Assembly: GCA_023382935.1 (NCBI GenBank)
Contig: JAHDXL010000010.1
Coordinates: 1 to 64,000 of the forward strand
DNA: 64,000 nucleotides
From: Phycisphaerales bacterium
Lineage (GTDB): Bacteria; Planctomycetota; Phycisphaerae; Phycisphaerales; UBA1924
Direction of reading: 5' to 3'
The first letter of the stretch is position 1. Each line of letters opens with the position of its first letter. Made by a program: the position numbers and the translations under genes. Under the pieces are notes generated by a model. The model did not search any database, was not told the DNA's origin, and saw only the letters and a list, made by a program, of their open reading frames with translations. Positions 4,918 to 57,072 of this stretch are shown here, one piece after another.

Positions 4918-5561
4918 ATGACGAAGTCACGAGCGGGTTGGGCCTGGGCAGCGATGGCGGGCTTGGCGGGTGCCGGTGCGGCGCAGGATTTCGAGATCTA
5001 CCTGGTCGCGCCGGCATGTGCTCCCTGGGGGTCGAGTCGACTTACGAGGTCGAGGCGTGGGGGCGGGTGACGGGCGACGAGTGGATGTACGGCGTCAGTG
5101 CGATCGCGCAATTCGGGATCGACGTGATCCAGACGGGCTACGCCGGCATGGTCAGTTCGGTGAGCACCGCCTACCACTGGGGTGGAGGAATCGTGCTGGA
5201 CAACGGGGGCACGCCCATCGGGCCTGACCTCGTTGGCGTGCGTGGCGGACAACTGGCCAACCTGTTCGGTTTTCTCAATCCGGATATTGATCTGAGCAAC
5301 CCGATCCTGTTGTTCACGTTTGAAGTGACGCTCAATGGGGAGGAGGGCGTCAGCACGTACACGCCGACGAATCCCGCGCCCCAGGGCGGGCTGAGTTTCT
5401 ACCCCGACAGCACGCAGGGACAGTCCATTGTTGCGCCGAACGACGCGGGCACGACGTTGACGCTCTTTGGAGCGACCACGAGTGTCTTGCCGGCGCCGGG
5501 GGCGGCGGTGTTGCTGGGGGTGAGTCTCGTTTTCGGGCGGCGTCGGCGTGGGCGGGCATGA
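4918..5561 (+). pseudogene. PEP-CTERM-like secreted protein, frameshifted
   Basis: An ATG at 4918 opens a good signal peptide (MTKSRAGWAWAAMAGLAGAG, then AAQDFEIYLVAP) in one frame. The rest of the protein, from about 5030, continues in another frame (LGVESTYEVEAWGRVTGDEW) to 5561. One missing base near 5010-5030 would join them. The mature part contains a beta-rich segment (LLFTFEVTLNGEE) and ends in the anchor LPAPGAAVLLGVSLVFGRRR, that is Pro-Ala-Pro, a membrane helix and arginines, as in planctomycete PEP-CTERM proteins. It may be a true pseudogene or an assembly error. The broken copies at 52.8-54.3 kb look related. Confidence 0.65.
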
Positions 5562-6313: not shown

Positions 6314-8088
6314 CGGGCGCGCTCCACGAGGTCAAGGGTGACGAAGCGGCCATTGGCGTAGTTGTAGCCGGCGAAGGTATCAATGCGGCGCAGGTCGAGT
6401 TCGCCGGCGCTGCGGCGGCGCGGCACGATGAGCACGCCGTCGGGGTGCGAGGCCAGCCAGGAGTGGATGTCATCCTCGGTGATCCGTTCGACGCGGCCTT
6501 TGGTGAGGAAGATGACGCTGTCCTCGCAGTGCCCGGCGCAGGCGATCGGGCGATCGGGCGGAACGGCGGCGGCGGCGCGGGCGTAGGCGAACACGACGCT
6601 GGAGCGAGGCAGGATGAAGCCGAGGGTGCCGACGACAAACAACACGGCGGCAGCGATGCTCCAGGCGCAAGCGTGCAGGAGCAGTCCTTCCGAGGCTTCT
6701 TCGCGGGCTTTGCGCAGGAAGAGGAAGGAACCGACGGCGACAACGGCGGCGACGCCGATGGCCAGCCAGCCGCCCCCGAGCAGCGAGAGTCCGATGGGCG
6801 CGACGCAGCAGATGGCGATGCCGATGCCGAACCAGACGTTGAGTCCGCGCGTGGCGCGCTCGCCGGTCGCGGTGTCGATGCGGGCGCGGGCGGCGTCGAC
6901 GATGGCGGCGGCGCTGAGGAGCGCCAGGGCCGGGTACATCGGCATGGTGTAGTGGGGGAGTTTGGTCATCACCAGTTCAAACACCAGCCAGGCGGGGGCG
7001 ATCCAGCACATGAGGAAGAGTTCGCGTTCGCGTCCGAGCACGCGCTGCCGCCAGCGGGTCGGGAGCGTGCGCCAGCGTTGCCTGCGCGTCGAGTCCGTTT
7101 CGGGCGGGGGGAGGCGCACGGCCAGTCTCCAGGTGCGGATGAACGCGCCAAGCAGCAGGAGCGAGCCGGGCCAGAGCAGGACGGCCGAAAGCAGGAGGTG
7201 GTAGCCAGGTGGGCCGAAGTGGCCTTCGCGCGGGGCGGCGCTGCGCCCGAGCGTTTCGCTGACGAGCGTCTTCCAGAGAGTGCCGGCGCCGATCTGATGT
7301 GCGACGAGAACCAGCCAAGGCGCGATAAAGATGAGCAACACGCCCGCGCCGAGCAGGGGCTTGGTGCGTTTGAGCCAACGCCAGTCGCGGGCCACGCCGC
7401 TGAAGCACACGACCGTCAATCCGACCACCATCGGCGTGACGGGGCCTTTCGCGAGGATGCCCAGCGCGATCGAAGTCCAGAGCCAGGCGGCAAGAAGATA
7501 GGGCGTGGCTCCGGCCGCAGTCGGGCGGGCGCGGATGGACCACAGGGAGACGACCGCGCTGGTGGTGCAGGCCAGGAGCAACTGATCGGCGCGGGCCTGA
7601 TGAGCGTCCCAGACCAGCATGGGGCAGATGGCCAGCAGGGCGGCGCCGAGCAGCCCGGTGAGGTCATCGAAGAGGCGCGAGCCGAGATACCAAGTGAGCA
7701 GCACGGCGATGGTTGAGCACAGCGCGCTGGGCAGGCGGTACATCCAGATGGCGTCGCGCGAGGGATCGCCGCCGGTGAAGATGGCGGCCGAGGCCGATTG
7801 CAGGTAGTAGATGAGCGGAGGCTTGTTGAGACGCGGGCGGTCCTGGATCTTGGGGACGGCCAGCCCGCCGTCGTGAAACCCAGAGACCTTGTGCGAGTCT
7901 GGAAGGGCGAGCGATTCGAACATCTGTCGGCTGGCCTGGGCAAAGCGTGACTCGTCGCGGTCGATCGGCGGAATGGCGCGGAGGCCTGGGAGATACACTG
8001 CCAGGCACAGGATGGTCAGCAGCGCCGCGCCGCGCCATCCGCGGACGGATCGTTCGAGCGTGCGCATGAACTGACCGTTGTCGAGCAT
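6310..8088 (-). CDS. ArnT/GT39-like membrane glycosyltransferase
   Basis: About 592 aa with roughly a dozen hydrophobic segments. The first extracytoplasmic loop has PPIDRDESRFAQASRQM, the Asp-Glu motif of the ArnT/PMT (GT-C) superfamily, which transfers sugars from polyprenyl-phosphate donors outside the membrane. A second loop motif, RPRLNKPPLIYYLQ, fits the same family. The last ~90 residues form a soluble tail with a basic RRRSAGELDLRR. ATGs at 8088 and 8067 are both possible and neither has a clear ribosome site. It is followed directly by truB and is divergent from the PAP2 gene. The acceptor (lipid A, protein or other) cannot be told. Confidence 0.85.
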   Translation of the reverse strand: MLDNGQFMRTLERSVRGWRGAALLTILCLAVYLPGLRAIPPIDRDESRFAQASRQMFESLALPDSHKVSGFHDGGLAVPKIQDRPRLNKPPLIYYLQSASAAIFTGGDPSRDAIWMYRLPSALCSTIAVLLTWYLGSRLFDDLTGLLGAALLAICPMLVWDAHQARADQLLLACTTSAVVSLWSIRARPTAAGATPYLLAAWLWTSIALGILAKGPVTPMVVGLTVVCFSGVARDWRWLKRTKPLLGAGVLLIFIAPWLVLVAHQIGAGTLWKTLVSETLGRSAAPREGHFGPPGYHLLLSAVLLWPGSLLLLGAFIRTWRLAVRLPPPETDSTRRQRWRTLPTRWRQRVLGRERELFLMCWIAPAWLVFELVMTKLPHYTMPMYPALALLSAAAIVDAARARIDTATGERATRGLNVWFGIGIAICCVAPIGLSLLGGGWLAIGVAAVVAVGSFLFLRKAREEASEGLLLHACAWSIAAAVLFVVGTLGFILPRSSVVFAYARAAAAVPPDRPIACAGHCEDSVIFLTKGRVERITEDDIHSWLASHPDGVLIVPRRRSAGELDLRRIDTFAGYNYANGRFVTLDLVERAR

Positions 8089-49638: not shown

Positions 49639-51264
49639 ATGAACAGCGTGCTCATACCCGCGGCGATGCTGATTCCGGTGATCTTCGCGTTGGCGGTGGC
49701 GATCATGCCGGCCGAGAAGGCGCGGGGGACCGCGCTGCTCGGCATGCTGTTGGGCGCGGTGCCGGTGCTGGGGCTTTTGTTCCTGTTTGATTACCAGAAC
49801 GCGGCCGCGTTTCAGTTCGCCGGCTCGGTCGACTGGATTCCCGAGTTCGGCCTGCGCCTCTCGCTGGGCATTGACTCGGTGGCCCTGCTGCTGATCGCGC
49901 TGACCGCGCTGCTCGGGCCGATCTGCGTGCTGGGCTCATGGACCGCGATTGTCGAGCGCCAGCGGCTGTTCTACTCGTGGCTGCTGATCCTTCAGACGGC
50001 GATGCTCGGTGTTTTCGCCGCGCGTGACCTGGTGGTGTTCTACATCTGTTTCGAGTTCACGCTGCTGCCGATGTTCATTCTCATCGGCGTGTTCGGCTCG
50101 ACCAATCGCAAGATCGCGTCGATCAAGTTCTTCCTGTACACGTTTACCGGTTCGCTGATCGCGCTGGCGGGCCTGGTGTATGTCGCGTGGTACGCGGCCG
50201 GTCACTACGGACACTGGACGCTGGACATCGGCGATCTGGCATCCGCGGCGCGGACCATGAGCCCGACGCAGCAGGGGTGGGTGCTGGCGGGCATGCTGGC
50301 CGGCTTTGCCGTCAAGGTACCGCTATTCCCGCTGCATACGTGGTTGCCGCTCGCGCACACCGAGGCGCCGACGGCCGGCTCGGTCATCCTGGCGGGCGTG
50401 CTGCTGAAGTTGGGCACCTATGGCATTTACCGGTTCGTGCTGGGCTTTGTGCCGATGGCCGTCGCCGAGCACGCGCCGATGCTGGCGGTGCTGAGCATCA
50501 TCGGCATCGTGTACGCGGGTCTGATCTGCTGGGTGCAGACCGACGTGAAGAAGTTGATCGCGTATTCGTCGGTGAGCCACCTGGGCTTCTGCGTGCTGGG
50601 GCTGGTGGCGGTCAATGCGACCGGGCTGTCGGGCTCGATCCTCTACATGCTCAACCACGGGCTGAGCACGGGCGCACTGTTCCTCATGATCGGCTTCATG
50701 TACGAGCGCTATCACACGCGCGACATGGGGCAGTTGGGCGGGCTGGCCTCAAAGATGCCGGTGTGGTCGAGTTTCATGGTGTTCTTCGTGCTCGCATCCG
50801 TCGGGCTGCCCGGGCTCAACGGATTCGTCAGCGAGTTCCTGTGCCTGATCGGTGCATTCCAGTCGTCGTCGAGCCTGGTCGCCGCCGGGCATCCCGGGGC
50901 CACGCCCGGAGCCCTGGGCCCGTGGTATGCCTTCTTCGCCGGCACCGGCATGGTGGTCGCGGCGATGTACCTGCTCATCATGGTGGGCAGGGTGGTGTGG
51001 GGCAAACTGGTCGAGCCGCACGAGCATCATCACGACGATGACGGATCGCACTTGCCGCCCGATCTGACGGCCCGCGAAGTCACCGCTCTGATTCCGCTGG
51101 CGCTGGGGTGCCTGGTGTTCGGGCTGTGGCCCCAACCGTTGCTGGGGGCGATCGAGGCCCCGGTCAACGTGGCGATTCGGTCGTTCGAGTTTGAAGCGCC
51201 GCAGCCGACGCCGCACCCTGAGCACGCACAGGCCGACGCTCACGTCGGGGAGGTCGCCCCGTGA
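49639..51264 (+). CDS. nuoM: NADH-quinone oxidoreductase subunit M
   Basis: 541 aa, antiporter-like subunit with ~14 helices. Typical blocks are VVFYICFEFTLLPMFILIGVFG, AGFAVKVPLFPLHTWLPLAHTEAPTAGSVILAGVLLKLGTYGI and TDVKKLIAYSSVSHLGFCVLG. A short His/Asp-rich loop (PHEHHHDDDGSH, near residue 460) sits at a similar place to the larger one in NuoL. The ATG at 49639 is preferred over a TTG six bases earlier. Confidence 0.95.
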   Translation: MNSVLIPAAMLIPVIFALAVAIMPAEKARGTALLGMLLGAVPVLGLLFLFDYQNAAAFQFAGSVDWIPEFGLRLSLGIDSVALLLIALTALLGPICVLGSWTAIVERQRLFYSWLLILQTAMLGVFAARDLVVFYICFEFTLLPMFILIGVFGSTNRKIASIKFFLYTFTGSLIALAGLVYVAWYAAGHYGHWTLDIGDLASAARTMSPTQQGWVLAGMLAGFAVKVPLFPLHTWLPLAHTEAPTAGSVILAGVLLKLGTYGIYRFVLGFVPMAVAEHAPMLAVLSIIGIVYAGLICWVQTDVKKLIAYSSVSHLGFCVLGLVAVNATGLSGSILYMLNHGLSTGALFLMIGFMYERYHTRDMGQLGGLASKMPVWSSFMVFFVLASVGLPGLNGFVSEFLCLIGAFQSSSSLVAAGHPGATPGALGPWYAFFAGTGMVVAAMYLLIMVGRVVWGKLVEPHEHHHDDDGSHLPPDLTAREVTALIPLALGCLVFGLWPQPLLGAIEAPVNVAIRSFEFEAPQPTPHPEHAQADAHVGEVAP

Positions 51265-52811
51265 CCGAACGCCTTGCCTATCTGTGGCCGGAGTTGTCGC
51301 TGTTCATCGCGACGTGCGTGGTGATGGTGCTTGGGTTGAGCCCCTCGCGTGAAACGCGGCGCTTGTGTGCGTGGGTTTCGGCGATCGGGCTGCTGGTGGC
51401 GGCCGGGCTGGCGGTGAACGCGCCGGTCGATTCCGAGGCGCTGCTGCCCAACCTCATGCCCTTCGCCAAGTTGCTCATCGCGATGGTGGGGCTGGTGCTG
51501 CTGATGCTGCTGGCCGGCACGGTCGACCGCGACTACGAGGCCGAGATTGCGTCCGGGCGAACGGTGTTCCACGCGCTGCGGTCCAACCGGGCCGAGTTCT
51601 ACTCGTTCTTCCTCTTCAGCCTCACGGGGCTGATGCTCACGGCCAGCGCGGAAAGTCTGATCTGGCTGTTCCTGGCGCTCGAACTGACGAGCCTGCCGAC
51701 GTACATCATGGTGACGATCTCGACGCGCGGCACACAGAGCCAGGAGGCCGGCGTCAAGTACTTCTTCCTGGGCGCGCTCGGCGCGGCGTTCTTCCTGTAT
51801 GGGTTCGCGCTGATCTATGGCGGCACGGGCGCGACGCACTTTGCCGACATCGCCGCCGTCATTGCCGCCGACGGCATGAACCCCATCCTGACGCTGGGCA
51901 TGATCATCGGGCTGATCGGGGTGTCGTTCAAGATCGCGGCTGTGCCGATGCACTTCTACACGCCCGACGTGTATCAAGGCGCCGCGGCGCCGGTGTCGGC
52001 CATGCTCGCGTTCGTTCCCAAGGCGGCCGGCTTCATCGCGATCATCGTGCTGTGCGCTCTCATGGGCTGGCGGTACGGGCCGGGGGGCGAGAGTCTGCCC
52101 GAGGCTGTGCGCCTGCTGCTGTGGATCTCGGCGGCCCTGACGATGACGGTGGGCAACACGCTGGCGCTGCGGCAGCGCTCGGTCAAACGCATCCTAGCGT
52201 ATTCGTCGATCGCGCACTCGGGCTACATGCTCGTCGGCGTGGTGGCCGGCCCGGGCAGCGACCCGGCGCGCTTCACGACCAACGGCATCGCGGCCGTCCT
52301 GTTCTACCTGCTGTGCTACGGGTTCATGAACGTGGGCGCCTTCGCGGTGCTTGCGGCGTTGCGGCGTCCGGACGGGACCGAGGCCGACGACATCGACGAC
52401 ATCCGCGGGCTGTGTCACACGCAGCCGGTGCTGGGGTGGTCGATGGTGCTGTGCGCCCTTAGTCTGCTGGGCATGCCCCCGCTGCTCGGGTTCATCGGCA
52501 AGTTCGGACTGTTCACCAGCGCCATCAGCGCCGGTGAGATCGTGCTGGTCGTGATCCTCGGGCTCAACTCGGCCATCGCGGCGGCGTATTACCTGCGCCT
52601 GGTCGTGACGCCCTACCTCGAGCGTCCGGCCGAGCGGGACGCCATGGCGGTGCAGCGCGTGGCCATTCCGTCGCGGGCAATCGTAGCCGTGGTGTCGGCG
52701 TGCTCGGTGGTGGTGCTGGTGCTGGCGGCCCAGTTCCTCGTGACGCGGTCGGCCATTGCCGGGCGCGTGATCGAGACGAAGCCACCCGTCAGAGCCCAGA
52801 CCCAGCCGTGA
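51261..52811 (+). CDS. nuoN: NADH-quinone oxidoreductase subunit N
   Basis: 516 aa. The GTG at 51261 overlaps the nuoM stop. NuoN blocks are ESLIWLFLALELTSLPTYIMVTI, EAGVKYFFLGALGAAFFLYGFALIYG, IAAVPMHFYTPDVYQGAAAPVSAMLAFVPKAAG and RSVKRILAYSSIAHSGYMLVG. It ends the nuoJKLMN operon; a weak GCCC/GGGC stem with TTTT follows near 52823-52841. Confidence 0.95.
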   Translation: MTERLAYLWPELSLFIATCVVMVLGLSPSRETRRLCAWVSAIGLLVAAGLAVNAPVDSEALLPNLMPFAKLLIAMVGLVLLMLLAGTVDRDYEAEIASGRTVFHALRSNRAEFYSFFLFSLTGLMLTASAESLIWLFLALELTSLPTYIMVTISTRGTQSQEAGVKYFFLGALGAAFFLYGFALIYGGTGATHFADIAAVIAADGMNPILTLGMIIGLIGVSFKIAAVPMHFYTPDVYQGAAAPVSAMLAFVPKAAGFIAIIVLCALMGWRYGPGGESLPEAVRLLLWISAALTMTVGNTLALRQRSVKRILAYSSIAHSGYMLVGVVAGPGSDPARFTTNGIAAVLFYLLCYGFMNVGAFAVLAALRRPDGTEADDIDDIRGLCHTQPVLGWSMVLCALSLLGMPPLLGFIGKFGLFTSAISAGEIVLVVILGLNSAIAAAYYLRLVVTPYLERPAERDAMAVQRVAIPSRAIVAVVSACSVVVLVLAAQFLVTRSAIAGRVIETKPPVRAQTQP

Positions 52812-52827
52812 CGCTCATTCGCCCGGG

Positions 52828-53133
52828 TTGTGGGCTTTTCTCGTCTTACCGTCCTTGTATTTGCCCGGCGGAAGGATCGATTTTGCGAATCCGCTGGCGA
52901 TGGTGATGGTTGAAATCGGCACGACTGCATTCTCGCGCGGTAATCTTGAGATCCACCTTCGCCCGCCGTCCGACGTGGAGGTGCCTTACATTGATTGGTG
53001 GGACGGGACCATCGGCGACTGGATTGGACCAACCGACCCCTGCGTCGGCCTGATCACAGAGTCCATCAACGTGCGCGTCATCCCCGCGCCGGCGACGTTG
53101 GCAACGCTCAGCGTGGCTTGGCGCAGGCGATAG
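52828..53133 (+). pseudogene. C-terminal fragment of a PEP-CTERM-like protein
   Basis: About 100 codons are open but there is no signal peptide and no sensible start. From around residue 14 the sequence is protein-like (beta-rich, with EVPYIDWWDGTIGDWIG) and ends in the sorting-type anchor VRVIPAPATLATLSVAWRRR. The order of elements (beta strand, Trp/Asp-rich loop, VRVIPAPA, helix, arginines) matches the end of the gene at 53657. It is probably a 5'-deleted paralogue. Confidence 0.6.
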
Positions 53134-53150
53134 TGGATTTGGTCGGACGT

Positions 53151-53510
53151 TCAGTGGTCGAACAGCATCACCGCCACCAGCCGCCGCCGACGATTTACAC
53201 CACCAGGCAGGAAGGTTCCGCGTTGCGGGTGAATCTTCGACCCCGTCACACCCGGCGGCCCGCCGAACTCAACATGATTGAGGTCGATGCCCGTGTCAAT
53301 CATGGCGATGACTCGGCTTGGATCGTTCAGATCGGCCGGCGGCGAGCGGTACTGGTCGTACCCCACCAGCGCCCACGCGAAGTGAACCTTCGTCGTCTCA
53401 ATCCAATGCTGTCCGTACGGAACTGAGCGCTCGGCTCATACAGCGGGTCGTACGGCACGACCGGCTCGATGGTGCCAAATTGTGCGCCCCCCTCCCCCCG
53501 CGGCACCTGT
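53151..53510 (-). pseudogene. Remnant of a subtilisin-like (S8) serine protease
   Basis: On the minus strand, one frame reads IEPVVPYDPLYEPSAQF, a typical S8 entry (NDPLY...). After a shift of frame near 53410 another frame continues with YGQHWIETTKVHFAWALVG and then VIAMIDTGIDLNHVEFGG, the catalytic-aspartate motif of S8 peptidases. The His and Ser motifs are absent; the reading ends at 53151. So this is a frameshifted, truncated gene start. Confidence 0.7.
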
Positions 53511-53656
53511 AAGCAAGCCAAACGCGCATGCGACTGCCGATGGCGTCCTCGTGTTTCCTGTGCAGAAACTGAGCATGTGCTTGCCTCCATCGTGAAAGTC
53601 TGGTATTTGTGAGGCGAACACGCAGAGCATACCAACTTCCAGCGGAGATGCAAGTC

Positions 53657-54267
53657 ATGAAACGCGACAGATCCAAACTCTTGTGTTTGGGGCTCGGGCT
53701 GGGACTCTCAGACGTCGCGCTTGCCGACGCCGTGTTCCACCTGTGGTTCGAGGCGCCCTCTGAAGTCCAGGCCGCAAGCACCTTCACGCTCACTCTATGG
53801 GCGGAAGTCACGGGATCGATTCTGGCCGATTCAGACGGAGGATTCAATAGATTTGGCTTGGATGTCGTTGGGAGTGGGCTTTCAGCCGCGTTCTCAAATG
53901 TCCAGATGCCGTACTTTGCTGCGCTTGCACCTGGAACTCCCGGCACCAACGCTATGCACCAGATCGTCGGAATAAACCTACCTGAAATCGGCCCGTTCTA
54001 CACGATGAACCCAATCATTCTATTCAATGTGGACGTGACATTGAATTCTGTCGAGACTGGCGAGATTGTTATAGCGACAAGTCAGATCGGGTGGGCGGAC
54101 TTTATGCTCGCTTGGTGGGTGGATGACGTCGCAGGAACCTATGTCACCGACAGCGACCCCGGTTCATCGCTCATCGCGCACCCGCCACCGTCCGTGTCAT
54201 CCCCGCACCGGCCTGTATGCCCACGGTCATCTTTGCCGGGTTCATCTGGGCGCGCCGGCGCGGTTGA
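53657..54267 (+). pseudogene. PEP-CTERM-like secreted protein, frameshifted near its end
   Basis: The ATG at 53657 opens a signal peptide (KLLCLGLGLGLSDVALA) and ~170 residues of a beta-rich domain (FEAPSEVQAASTFTLTLWAEV, FNVDVTLNSVETGEIVIATS). At about 54170-54190 the reading frame changes; the adjacent frame gives TVRVIPAPACMPTVIFAGFI followed by WARRRG and a stop at 54267. Without the shift the protein loses its anchor. Related to the broken gene at 4918 and the fragment at 52828. Confidence 0.7.
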
Positions 54268-54276
54268 CTCGCCGGT

Positions 54277-54294
54277 GTGCGGCTCCAGCCGCAC
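54277..54294. terminator. Hairpin upstream of the nuoD stop
   Basis: GTGCGGC (54277-54283) pairs perfectly with GCCGCAC (54288-54294) around TCCA. It lies between the convergent PEP-CTERM-like pseudogene and nuoD. No T tract follows, so termination is tentative. Confidence 0.4.
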
Positions 54295-54330
54295 GGGCAT
54301 GTCGGGGAACCGGGGCCAGAACCGGAACGA

Positions 54331-55620
54331 CTACCGATCCAGTTCGGCCGCGACGATGTTGAGCGAGCCCAGCACCGCGACGATGTCGGCCAGCATGTGC
54401 CCTTCGATCAGTTTGGCCATGACCTGGTAGTTGATGAAACTGGGCGGGCGGACCTTGACGCGCCAGGCTCGGGGTGAGCCGTCGGAGACGATGTAATAGC
54501 CCAGTTCGCCGTTGGCGGTTTCGTTGGCGCCGTAAGCCTCAGCCACGGGCGGTTCCCAGCCGCGGTTGGTCATGATGAGTTCGAAGTGCTGGATGAGCCC
54601 TTCGATCGAGCCGTAGACCTCGGGCTTGGGGGGCTTGACCATCTTCGAGTCGCTGAAGACGTCGACGGGGCCCTGGGGGATGTTGTCAATCAACTGGTCG
54701 ATGATCTTGATCGCCTGGCGAATTTCCTCGACGCGCACCACGAAGCGGGCATAGACGTCGCCGGTGGTGGCCACGGGCACATTGAACTTGACGCGCTCGG
54801 CGCCCTGTCCGTCCCAGTTGTCGGCGTAACAGAGGTAAGGCTCGTCCTTACGGAGGTCGCGCCTGACGCCCGAGGCGCGGGCGATGGGGCCGCTGAGGCT
54901 CCAGGCGATGGCGTCTTCACGCGAGATGGCGCCGACGCCCTGTGTGCGGTCCATGAAGATGCGGTTGCGGAGGACGAGTTTCTCAAGATCGCGCACGGCA
55001 GTGGGCAGGTCGTCGTGGATGAAGTTCTTGACCAGGCGCTTGAAGGTCTCTTCGTCCGGCAGATCCTGCATGGCCCCGCCCACGCGGGTCCAGTCGGGGT
55101 GGAAGCGCTGTCCGGAGATGTAGTCGCAGATGTCGTAAATCTTCTCGCGCGGGTTGAAAGCGTAGAGGAAACCTGTGAACGCGCCCAGGTCAAGGGCAGC
55201 CGCGCCGACGCAGAGCAGGTGGTCCTGGATGCGGCCGAGTTCGGCCATGATGGTGCGAAGCACCTTGCAACGGGGAGTGATCTCGATGCCGAAGAGGGTC
55301 TCGACCGCGTGATGCCAGCAAATGTCGTTGGAGACCGGCGAGAGGTAGTTCATCCGCGAGCAGATCGTGACGTACTGGTTGTAGTCGAGGTGCTCGCCGA
55401 GTTTTTCGAATCCGGAGTGCAGGTAGCCGATGTGCGGGGTGCAGCGGGCGACGCGCTCGCCATCGAGTTCGAGGACGAGGCGGAGCGTGGTGTGCGTGGC
55501 CGGGTGCTGAGGCCCGAAGTTGAGCACCCAGCGATCGCCGGTGTCGACGTGGTCCTTGATATACCCGATCTTGTCGGCGTCGACCGTGAGCCCTTCTTCC
55601 GGGCGGAGCGTGTACGGCAT
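54331..55620 (-). CDS. nuoD: NADH-quinone oxidoreductase subunit D
   Basis: 429 aa, the 49-kDa-type subunit forming part of the quinone site. Family blocks are VLNFGPQHPATHTTLRLVLELDGE, HIGYLHSGFEKLGEHLDYNQ, MNYLSPVSNDICWHHAVE, RGWEPPVAEAYGANETANGELGYYIVSDG and the RPPSFINYQVM near the end. The ATG at 55620 starts the conserved protein. It is far from typical nuo order: nuoJKLMN face it on the other strand and nuoA-C, E-I are not in the window. Confidence 0.95.
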   Translation of the reverse strand: MPYTLRPEEGLTVDADKIGYIKDHVDTGDRWVLNFGPQHPATHTTLRLVLELDGERVARCTPHIGYLHSGFEKLGEHLDYNQYVTICSRMNYLSPVSNDICWHHAVETLFGIEITPRCKVLRTIMAELGRIQDHLLCVGAAALDLGAFTGFLYAFNPREKIYDICDYISGQRFHPDWTRVGGAMQDLPDEETFKRLVKNFIHDDLPTAVRDLEKLVLRNRIFMDRTQGVGAISREDAIAWSLSGPIARASGVRRDLRKDEPYLCYADNWDGQGAERVKFNVPVATTGDVYARFVVRVEEIRQAIKIIDQLIDNIPQGPVDVFSDSKMVKPPKPEVYGSIEGLIQHFELIMTNRGWEPPVAEAYGANETANGELGYYIVSDGSPRAWRVKVRPPSFINYQVMAKLIEGHMLADIVAVLGSLNIVAAELDR

Positions 55621-55654
55621 GGATACCTCCCGCAGGATGGGATGGTAGACCAGT

Positions 55655-57028
55655 TCAGCGGGCACGTTGGACGATGCCCAGCGAGCGGGCGGCCATGCCG
55701 GCGATCGAGACGTGTTCGGGCCCGATCAACCCGGTTTCGATGCGGTTGTTCAGAGGCCCGGCCAGCCCGGGGGGGACGGCCCCCGAGCCGAGCATGGATC
55801 CGATGATCGAGCCGACCGTGGCCCCGTTGCAGTCGGTGTCCCGCCCGGCCATGACCGAAAGCCCCAGCGTGCGGGGAACGTCGCCGTTTCCGATCAGAAG
55901 CGAACCGGCGACAATGACGGCGTGGGGAATGGCATGCACCGGCTCGAGGCTGCCGATCCGATCGTCAAACAAATCGAGGGCCTGTTCGTCGGACAAATCG
56001 GGCGAGCAACTGTCGAGCAGCGGGCGGACGGCCCGGGCCAGTCGACTGTCCGGCGGGATGTGCGAGAGAGCGCCGGAGACGATCCGCCGCGGGTCGGGCT
56101 CGGTGAAGGCGCGGGCGATCATGGCGGCCACAAACATCGAGCCGTAGACGCCGTTGCCCGTGTGACTGATGCGGGCGTCGTGCCAGGCCAGTTCGGCGGC
56201 CAGTGTGGGGTTGCCGGGGCAGGCGTAGGCATAGGCGTCGGCTCGGATGGCGGCCCCGACCCACTCTCGATAGGGGTTCTGTCGAGTCCGCACCCAATGC
56301 CAGTCGACGTCCTGCTCGTTCTGGGCCCAGTCAGAGTTGAGGTGGAAGTCGTATCGCTCGACAAGATTGCGGAAGGCCTGGGTCTCGGCCGTACAGACAG
56401 ACATGTACGGCAGGCTGCTCATCCACGCGCGGGCGACATGCCAGGAGGTGAACTTGAGCCCGTGCTCTTCGAGGATGCGTGTGCCCAGCAGTGTGTAGCG
56501 GATGTCGTCGTCCGTCTCCATGCAGTCGATGCGCGAGCGTGTGGAACGCGGGCAGCAGACCGGGCCGCTGAGTTCCTCCGCCGGCGAGCGCGGGGGGGCG
56601 TAGCCGCGGATCGGATACTCGCGCTGCCCCACCGCTTGCAGATAGGTGCGGATGCGCTCGCGAGTGGAAAGCCCGTTGCGGGGGTGCATGAAGACCTCGA
56701 AGGGCTTGCCGAGGGCGCATCCGGCGCAGCGCGCCAGCCACGCGCCGTGAAGACGGTTGAGCAGGTCGGCATCGGAGCCGGACCAGGGGCGACACGGAGC
56801 GGGGCATGCCAGAGCGCGGATGGCGTCGAGTTCGGTGGGCTCGGTCGTGCTCTTGTGTCGTCGCTGAGCCCAGAGATCGAGCAGGCCGCGGCAGGCGTCG
56901 GAGGAGAAGTCCGTGTCGGAGGAAGCGTACGCGCGCAGGGCGAGCAAGGCTTCGACCGGACCCCCTTCTTCGCGGGTCTGGGCGACTTCCTGTTCAAACA
57001 GTGATTCATGGTTGGTCCAGCCCGGCAT
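55655..57028 (-). CDS. ADP-ribosylglycohydrolase family protein
   Basis: 457 aa from the ATG at 57028. The DraG/ARH fold motifs are present: LHGAWLARCAGCALGKPFE, the metal motif METDDDIRYTLLG, ISHTGNGVYGSMFVAAMIA and the second metal motif GRDTDCNGATVGSIIGSMLG. Such enzymes remove ADP-ribose from proteins or small molecules. It lies 34 nt upstream of nuoD on the same strand, so cotranscription is likely, although a functional link is not evident. Confidence 0.9.
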   Translation of the reverse strand: MPGWTNHESLFEQEVAQTREEGGPVEALLALRAYASSDTDFSSDACRGLLDLWAQRRHKSTTEPTELDAIRALACPAPCRPWSGSDADLLNRLHGAWLARCAGCALGKPFEVFMHPRNGLSTRERIRTYLQAVGQREYPIRGYAPPRSPAEELSGPVCCPRSTRSRIDCMETDDDIRYTLLGTRILEEHGLKFTSWHVARAWMSSLPYMSVCTAETQAFRNLVERYDFHLNSDWAQNEQDVDWHWVRTRQNPYREWVGAAIRADAYAYACPGNPTLAAELAWHDARISHTGNGVYGSMFVAAMIARAFTEPDPRRIVSGALSHIPPDSRLARAVRPLLDSCSPDLSDEQALDLFDDRIGSLEPVHAIPHAVIVAGSLLIGNGDVPRTLGLSVMAGRDTDCNGATVGSIIGSMLGSGAVPPGLAGPLNNRIETGLIGPEHVSIAGMAARSLGIVQRAR

Positions 57029-57072
57029 GAAGGCTCCCACGGCTCGGCGGCGAATCGCGCTACCGTTGTTGT

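Follow-up and report, generated by a model that had tools for sequence, protein, structure and literature searches.

Even closely related species share few orthologous PEP-CTERM proteins, a scarcity that has been ascribed to duplication and loss (Haft et al. 2006, PMC1569441). A cohesin/dockerin peptidase complex, the 'Planctosome', has been proposed for freshwater Planctomycetes (PMC6461901). We analysed a window of 64,000 nt, part of contig C10 of a genome designated G000, in which the gene debris described between nuoN and nuoD proved real and forms an island with sharp borders (locus W). It represents one dead copy of a two-gene surface-protein unit that is dispersed in the genome. Taken alone the island is ordinary gene decay, and it is the family of origin that changes in an uncommon way.

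The genomes compared were G002, the sister species of G000 (RHKP01, 'Cyanobacteria bacterium CYA N2_1'), G026 (JAUIES01, Phycisphaerae bacterium 8_bin.42) and G001 (RFGK01, Planctomycetota bacterium J022). RHKP01 carries a Cyanobacteria title, yet it is placed in the genus of G000, beside Phycisphaerae/Planctomycetota MAGs, and its public label is probably wrong. Homology between G000 and G002 was 86.5% up to window position 52828, absent across the island and 84.1% again from the nuoD stop codon at 54331. In G002, the same nuoN/nuoD slot holds 750 bp with transposase-like remnant pieces instead of the gene pair (Pfam DUF4096, 16.8 bits, and DDE_Tnp_1_2, 17.7 bits, both below the curated cut-offs), and nucleotide comparison with the window revealed no trace of the pair there. 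The features of the slot, including two copies of a 25-bp "hinge" that encodes VRVIPAPA where the anchor begins, are as follows.

51261-52811, + strand: nuoN, left flank (Pfam Proton_antipo_M; 94% to G002)
52822-53133, + strand: PEP-A, 3' part of a type I PEP-CTERM-type (predicted cohesin-fold) gene, 5' end lost (profile A2, alignment A2)
53069-53093, + strand: hinge copy 1, in PEP-A, 2 mismatches (hinge pattern search)
53189-53627, - strand: S8-B, N-terminal S8 protease remnant, frameshifted (match to the C4 protease, and profile)
53629-54212, + strand: core resembling locus E of G002, 87% over 585 columns, stopping at the hinge
53657-54265, + strand: PEP-B, type II PEP-CTERM-type (predicted cohesin-fold) gene, whole except for one lost base before the motif
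53688-53771, + strand: 84 bp shared unchanged with the C4 copy (locus F), within an 82% match
54178-54261, + strand: shifted-frame end of PEP-B, with motif and anchor (profile E 0.008)
54188-54212, + strand: hinge copy 2, in PEP-B, 2 mismatches (hinge pattern search)
54331-55665, - strand: nuoD, right flank (Pfam Complex1_49kDa; homology with G002 restarts at its stop codon)

The three gene fragments that a preliminary description had reported within 52812-54330 were all recovered at their places by profile matches and alignments, and the relatives hold full-length genes, not intact genes of equally short lengths, as that description had implied. The PEP-A open reading frame (52828-53133, + strand) retains the 3' half of the gene, the family profile matching 52822-53130 at positions 97-204 of 204 only. 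S8-B is made of two pieces on the - strand, 53189-53428 and 53451-53627, which correspond to the N-terminal half of the S8 protease of the C4 locus; the profile match (53202-53447) shows that only columns 34-126 of 531 remain, the gene being cut before the remaining catalytic domain and the dockerin-like end, with the catalytic triad gone except for the Asp region. In PEP-B, one frame covers profile positions 2-178 and a second frame 176-203, and in comparison with locus E of G002 a single base is absent a few codons upstream of the VRVIPAPA motif. A search within its own genome located a window paralog at C4:276-278 kb with 82% identity; window 53230-53860 (82%) and 54098-54212 (81%) match the gene pair at C4:277373-278355 of G000. 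Because of this paralog pair and of the sharp slot borders relative to G002, the resemblance of the fragments is beyond chance. The 84 identical bases shared by locus W and locus F are read as a sign of local conversion. Elsewhere in the window, a further PEP-CTERM-type gene lies at 5037-5549 (cohesin-fold family profile, E 1.3e-15), with no S8 partner.

The live unit consists of two divergent genes, one coding for an S8 protease with a dockerin-like C-terminal domain and the other for a short secreted protein with a PEP-CTERM-type anchor. The Peptidase_S8 family of Pfam was matched with 74.9 bits (L115) and 81.2 bits (L117), above the gathering cut-off of 21.8. Peptidases of family S8 use an Asp-His-Ser triad, and D79, H150 and S399 are invariant in the five aligned proteins. 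Dockerin type I domains carry two DxNxD...D calcium loops; both loops (DWNGDG..D and DLNLDT..D, read from the alignment) are present in the intact copies, with scores for L115 below the curated cut-offs (NF041540, 18.9 bits for a cut-off of 29; PF00404, 13 bits for 22.9). In the same way, the anchored proteins score below the PEP-CTERM cut-offs (TIGR02595, 14.0 bits for 16 in L010; PF07589, 13.4 bits in L113 and 11.7 bits in L115 for 20.7), and the C-terminal motif, hydrophobic stretch and basic end are all present, as VRVIPAPA...RRRR in the intact G000 and G002 copies, with PAP in place of PEP.

The fold of the anchored protein was examined with one AlphaFold2 model of one protein, the type II PEP protein of G002 locus E (L161), which is 85% identical to that of the window in alignment A3. 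The model had a pLDDT of 77, with 118 of its 234 residues at 90 or more. Rows 1-24 of a Foldseek search with this model were all cohesins (best E 4.2e-8); in a VIA search (best Z 12.6), at least 48 of 50 rows were named cohesins or cohesin complexes, the remaining ones being a cohesin-like interaction module (2o4e) and another domain (9ifr, CLIPPER, Z 10.0). The ectodomain of the PEP protein is thus predicted to have a cohesin fold. No cohesin family was listed by Pfam for L115, L113 or L117, and when the PEP protein alignment was used as a profile against the PDB, only two matches came up, both at chance level (E 0.15 and 0.17). The model of the S8 protease was too poor for use (pLDDT 34). 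By inference from these predictions, the protease would dock onto the anchored cohesin, which would hold the dockerin-tagged enzyme on the cell surface. Tight one-to-one binding is countered by the homogenised dockerin end, since the cohesins diverge.

The parent family was surveyed in G000, G001, G002 and G026 with profiles built from intact S8 and PEP proteins, a locus being counted where an S8 match lies beside a PEP match; weaker S8 matches with no partner (e.g. C2:449k, C1:568k) and lone PEP matches (e.g. C5:159k, C3:45-48k and window 5037-5549) were left out. G000 has eight S8/PEP loci, all divergent: A (C3), B (C1:363k), C (C12), D (C4:259k), E (C1:629k), F (C4:276k), G (C7) and W (the window). 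Only two of them, A and C, are open in both genes, the S8 reading frame of A continuing beyond the usual stop; the six others (B, D, E, F, G and W) are each disrupted by frameshifts, stops or deletions, in differing ways. Two of the seven assessable loci of G002 are open (A and H); B and D have the same inserted element inside S8, C and E have lost internal segments, I is disrupted as well, and locus F is interrupted at a contig end. Both pairs of G026 and the single one of G001 are open.

When DNA of the C4 copy was searched for in 61 genomes, 20 gave matches; except in G000, G001, G002 and G026, these were no longer than about 100 bp. The N-terminal half of S8 was matched in 3 of the 61 (G000, G002 and G026), a search that missed G001 though the DNA search found its copy. 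Two peptide patterns returned 28 loci in named genomes, a set from which our own records may be left out; 10 of them are in G002, G026 and G001 and 18 are weaker and in other phyla. Other PEP-CTERM-type genes were seen in passing. Three consecutive ones matching the cohesin-fold family profile are found in L139 (G000:C3:45825-48392), and G026 has a similar row at C8:195.8-198.8k. In G000, L007 2395-6093 contains a PEP-CTERM-type gene and a long gene, by appearance (by eye) an arginine decarboxylase, between locus F and its neighbour, which the S8 end directly adjoins in G002.

The hinge was then searched with up to 3 mismatches. It occurred 9 times in G000 and 5 times in G002, all 14 matches being inside copies of the S8/PEP family; G001 and G026 gave none, and neither did a reversed-pattern control. 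Copies B and I of G002 retain 21 of the 25 hinge bases, which is beyond the 3-mismatch limit. Codon use was compared between copies of different type, by asking how often the same residue is encoded by the same codon. The rate was 0.81 in the hinge (500/621), 0.37 in the ectodomain (1074/2904) and 0.30 in the anchor after the hinge (198/661); on the protease side, the S8 body gave 0.44-0.52 and the dockerin end 0.69 (1223/1762).

Loci A-E of G000 were paired with those of G002 by their flanks, and identity was compared over 300 bp before and 150 bp after the hinge. Loci B-E of G002 are each split over two contigs, the hinge and the PEP-side flank being on one contig. After the hinge, same-locus identity was 75% (A), 58% (B), 87% (C), 88% (D) and 85% (E), for an off-diagonal maximum of 71%; before the hinge it was 61, 60, 57, 60 and 56%, respectively, for a shuffled baseline (200 shuffles of one pair) with a mean of 56% and a maximum of 65%. 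Copies therefore matched their own locus in 0 of 5 cases before the hinge and in 4 of 5 after it. The highest values before the hinge were found off the diagonal, between W and G002 locus E (92%) and between G000 locus C and G002 locus D (84%). The switch is also visible in single stretches: L132 matches the window over its positions 7302 to 6718 and locus E of G000 from 6742 outwards, an overlap of exactly 25 bp, and L121 follows L131 as far as 8690 but already matches L135 from 8665 on. Against this stand locus B, where identity after the hinge is low and flank homology starts only about 285 bp past the PEP gene, and locus A, which reaches only 75%; moreover, an internal deletion in G002 locus C makes its 300 bp before the hinge partly S8 sequence. 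On the S8 side, own-locus homology stops just outside the stop codon for C and D, and within S8, 200-370 bp from its end, for A and B; judged from these alignments, the join on this side is not a fixed point and lies in or near the dockerin-coding end.

The S8 and PEP trees share four clades, I-IV, with ultrafast bootstrap values of 98 or more, and no same-locus pair groups together. G000 B, G000 E and G002 A are of type I; G000 F, W and G002 B of type II, with G002 E by its PEP gene; G000 C, G002 D and G002 H of type III; G000 A and G000 G of type IV. G000 D and G002 I are alone on long branches. The grouping of W with G002 E was supported at 100/100, and that of G000 C with G002 D within type III was weak (81/64). 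These alignments and trees show that the core, i.e. the protease body and the cohesin ectodomain, is not tied to its locus, with at least four core types at different loci in the two sisters. The homology switch at the hinge, the off-diagonal core matches and the codon conservation together indicate that paired cores have been exchanged between fixed loci. The exchange test rests on two sister genomes, both draft MAGs, and it is for this one species pair that mosaic genes were found at fixed loci.

We consider it probable that the island is a dead dispersed unit whose cores were swapped at the hinge by recombination and whose tandem pieces then decayed. Homologous recombination, either conversion or double crossover, would have acted among the copies or with DNA of a related cell, through the conserved ends. 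The window contains parts of two units, the PEP-A tail and then S8-B/PEP-B, arranged as from one hinge crossover; we infer this tandem formation in the window, and no tandem units were seen elsewhere. Deletions plus the frameshift would then have inactivated both.

The W and G002 locus E ectodomains differ with a dS of 0.285 and a dN of 0.049 over 148 codons. Among 70 ORF pairs of G000 and G002 the median dS was 0.59 (0.505 for nuoN and 0.533 for nuoD), and the three pairs below 0.285 all had a dN above dS and look like wrong frames. This suggests, from substitution rates, that the two cores split after the species did, i.e. a transfer between species. G000 C and G002 D show no such recency (dS 0.747, dN/dS 0.15), and between-species transfer thus rests on one case. 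That the genus keeps protease-plus-receptor modules at fixed sites and trades their cores among sites and species, by means of the hinge and the homogenised dockerin end, is a tentative extension, which we regard as plausible rather than probable.

Could each locus have formerly held several tandem units, of which the two species retained different ones, with no exchange at all? The window itself has parts of two tandem units, and duplication and loss are common in PEP-CTERM families (PMC1569441). However, loci A, C, D and E all switch homology within the gene, at the same 25 bp, if whole genes had been lost each core would still be with its own anchor, and the hinge and the dockerin end have homogenised codons. 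We hold this explanation to be unlikely.

W, G, I and A sit between genes converging on the unit, and H does not. Empty sites were seen for locus G in G002, G001 and G026, for locus I in G000 and for locus H in G026. At two other loci, both flanks are on one contig in the sister species and the unit is absent: the site of locus G measures 131 bp in G002 vs 1626 bp in G000, and that of locus I, which is empty in G000, 304 vs 2250 bp, homology stopping at or near the gene ends in both. No precise boundary or target duplication was seen at these two empty sites, and spread of the pair on a transposon was rejected for this reason. A mobile element, putatively of the IS3 kind, is present at loci B and D of G002, where 96-98 bases are identical between contig ends and target duplications of 3 bp were read by eye; this element disrupted the S8 genes rather than carrying them. 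At the contig ends of L129, L128, L131 and L136, the same element, inserted in two S8 genes, was collapsed by the assembler. The proposal of an insertion hotspot for surface proteins is partly borne out: what lies in the island is one dead copy from a dispersed surface-protein pair, two other loci are empty in the sister, and the debris in the same slot of G002 is a transposase-like remnant scoring below the cut-offs.

We also examined the nuo junction, where the genes had been described as broken into two convergent groups. nuoN (+) and nuoD (-) do converge on the island, but the groups are nuoJKLMN and a lone nuoD, which has an ADP-ribosylglycohydrolase gene upstream. This gene (window 55655-57040) lies between nuoD and an ArsP permease gene in G000 and G002; in G001, nuoD and an ArsP-like match are about 100 bp apart. 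nuoD was present in all 41 genomes searched. nuoN lies beside nuoD in one of 40 stretches from relatives (G002), several of which end at contig ends shortly past nuoN, and beside the STAS gene in one (G001). In the relatives examined, nuoD generally stands apart from nuoJKLMN; the island did not cause this separation, since relatives lacking the island share it. In G001, nuoN abuts the STAS gene and gyrA, and a DinB-type gene comes after nuoD; DinB, gyrA and STAS are 22-34 kb past nuoD in G000 and G002. Between G001 and G000/G002, the nuoN-nuoD junction thus marks a genuine breakpoint, which predates the G000/G002 split, and either side may be derived. A stretch of about 1 kb following STAS in G000 (L149 8461-9491, C10 ~88.4-89.4 kb) is unmatched in G002, where the gap is 240 bp.

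The island might then be the scar of a rearrangement by recombination between copies near nuoN and near nuoD. Two units have left parts in it, gene order relative to G001 breaks at nuoN-nuoD, and inverting 52.8-88.4 kb of G000 would bring nuoN to STAS as in G001. Yet the junction is common to G002, whose slot has no trace of the pair; DinB follows nuoD in G001 but is inside the turned segment in G000, so that one inversion is insufficient; and the G001 stretches downstream of nuoN and of nuoD showed no such pair. An origin of this kind looks quite improbable, and an inversion caused by the island was dropped as the leading reading, since G002 has the junction without the pair and the position of DinB in G001 needs more than one inversion. 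The earlier suggestion of a past rearrangement point holds for the junction, as a breakpoint between G001 and G000/G002, but probably not for the island, whose junction G002 shares without the pair.

That the hinge joins are chimeras of metagenome assembly has in its favour that both genomes are MAGs and that many G002 contigs end within these genes. The contig ends share 96-99 identical bases, suggesting words of about 99 bases, which far exceed the 25-bp hinge and would make a spurious join there unlikely, and the same join point occurs at several loci; such chimerism seems highly improbable. Finally, that the fragments are short working genes is hardly credible, because although the dN/dS of 0.17 for PEP-B against locus E of G002 points to selection on this ectodomain until lately, a frameshift precedes its anchor, S8 is down to about 90 of 531 profile columns, PEP-A has lost its 5' half and six of the eight G000 copies are broken in different ways.

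Recombination of paired cores at fixed sites, as preferred here, can be compared with known systems. Literature searches combining PEP-CTERM with gene conversion, with recombination, paralog and surface protein together, and with dockerin found nothing. Like PEP-CTERM/exosortase proteins (PMC1569441), the S8/PEP family has a C-terminal motif, a hydrophobic stretch and an RRRR end, fast-evolving paralogs and a scarcity of orthologs in close relatives; unlike them, it has conserved loci whose content before the motif differs, motif codons that form a DNA-level hinge exclusive to the family, and a PAP motif scoring below the curated cut-offs. The two sister species would thereby show a second route to few PEP-CTERM orthologs, in which the sites persist and the occupants are replaced from the hinge inwards. 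The modelled ectodomain is like cellulosomal and cohesin-like modules (2w1n, 2vo8, 5lxv) in its predicted fold, but unlike them in identity (7-15% in the best 10 VIA rows), in having no Pfam cohesin listed and in its partner, a protease. As with the planctosome (PMC6461901), surface peptidases of Planctomycetes would be linked through cohesin and dockerin modules; the planctosome has M12B/M14 peptidases, an adaptor and a large protein as anchor, unlike the single S8 protease beside one short anchored cohesin-fold protein found here in many copies. A protease exchanged as one unit with its anchored cohesin-fold partner is a simple candidate way for such bacteria to vary their surface enzymes. 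The family is also like the bab adhesin paralogs of Helicobacter pylori (PMC4552749), which are related surface genes at fixed loci whose occupants differ among strains, a variation ascribed to gene conversion; bab comprises single genes at three loci, and here a divergent two-gene core occupies about eight loci with the join within the anchor-coding end. The S8/PEP family thus resembles both bab gene conversion and the planctosome, and would be filed under neither.
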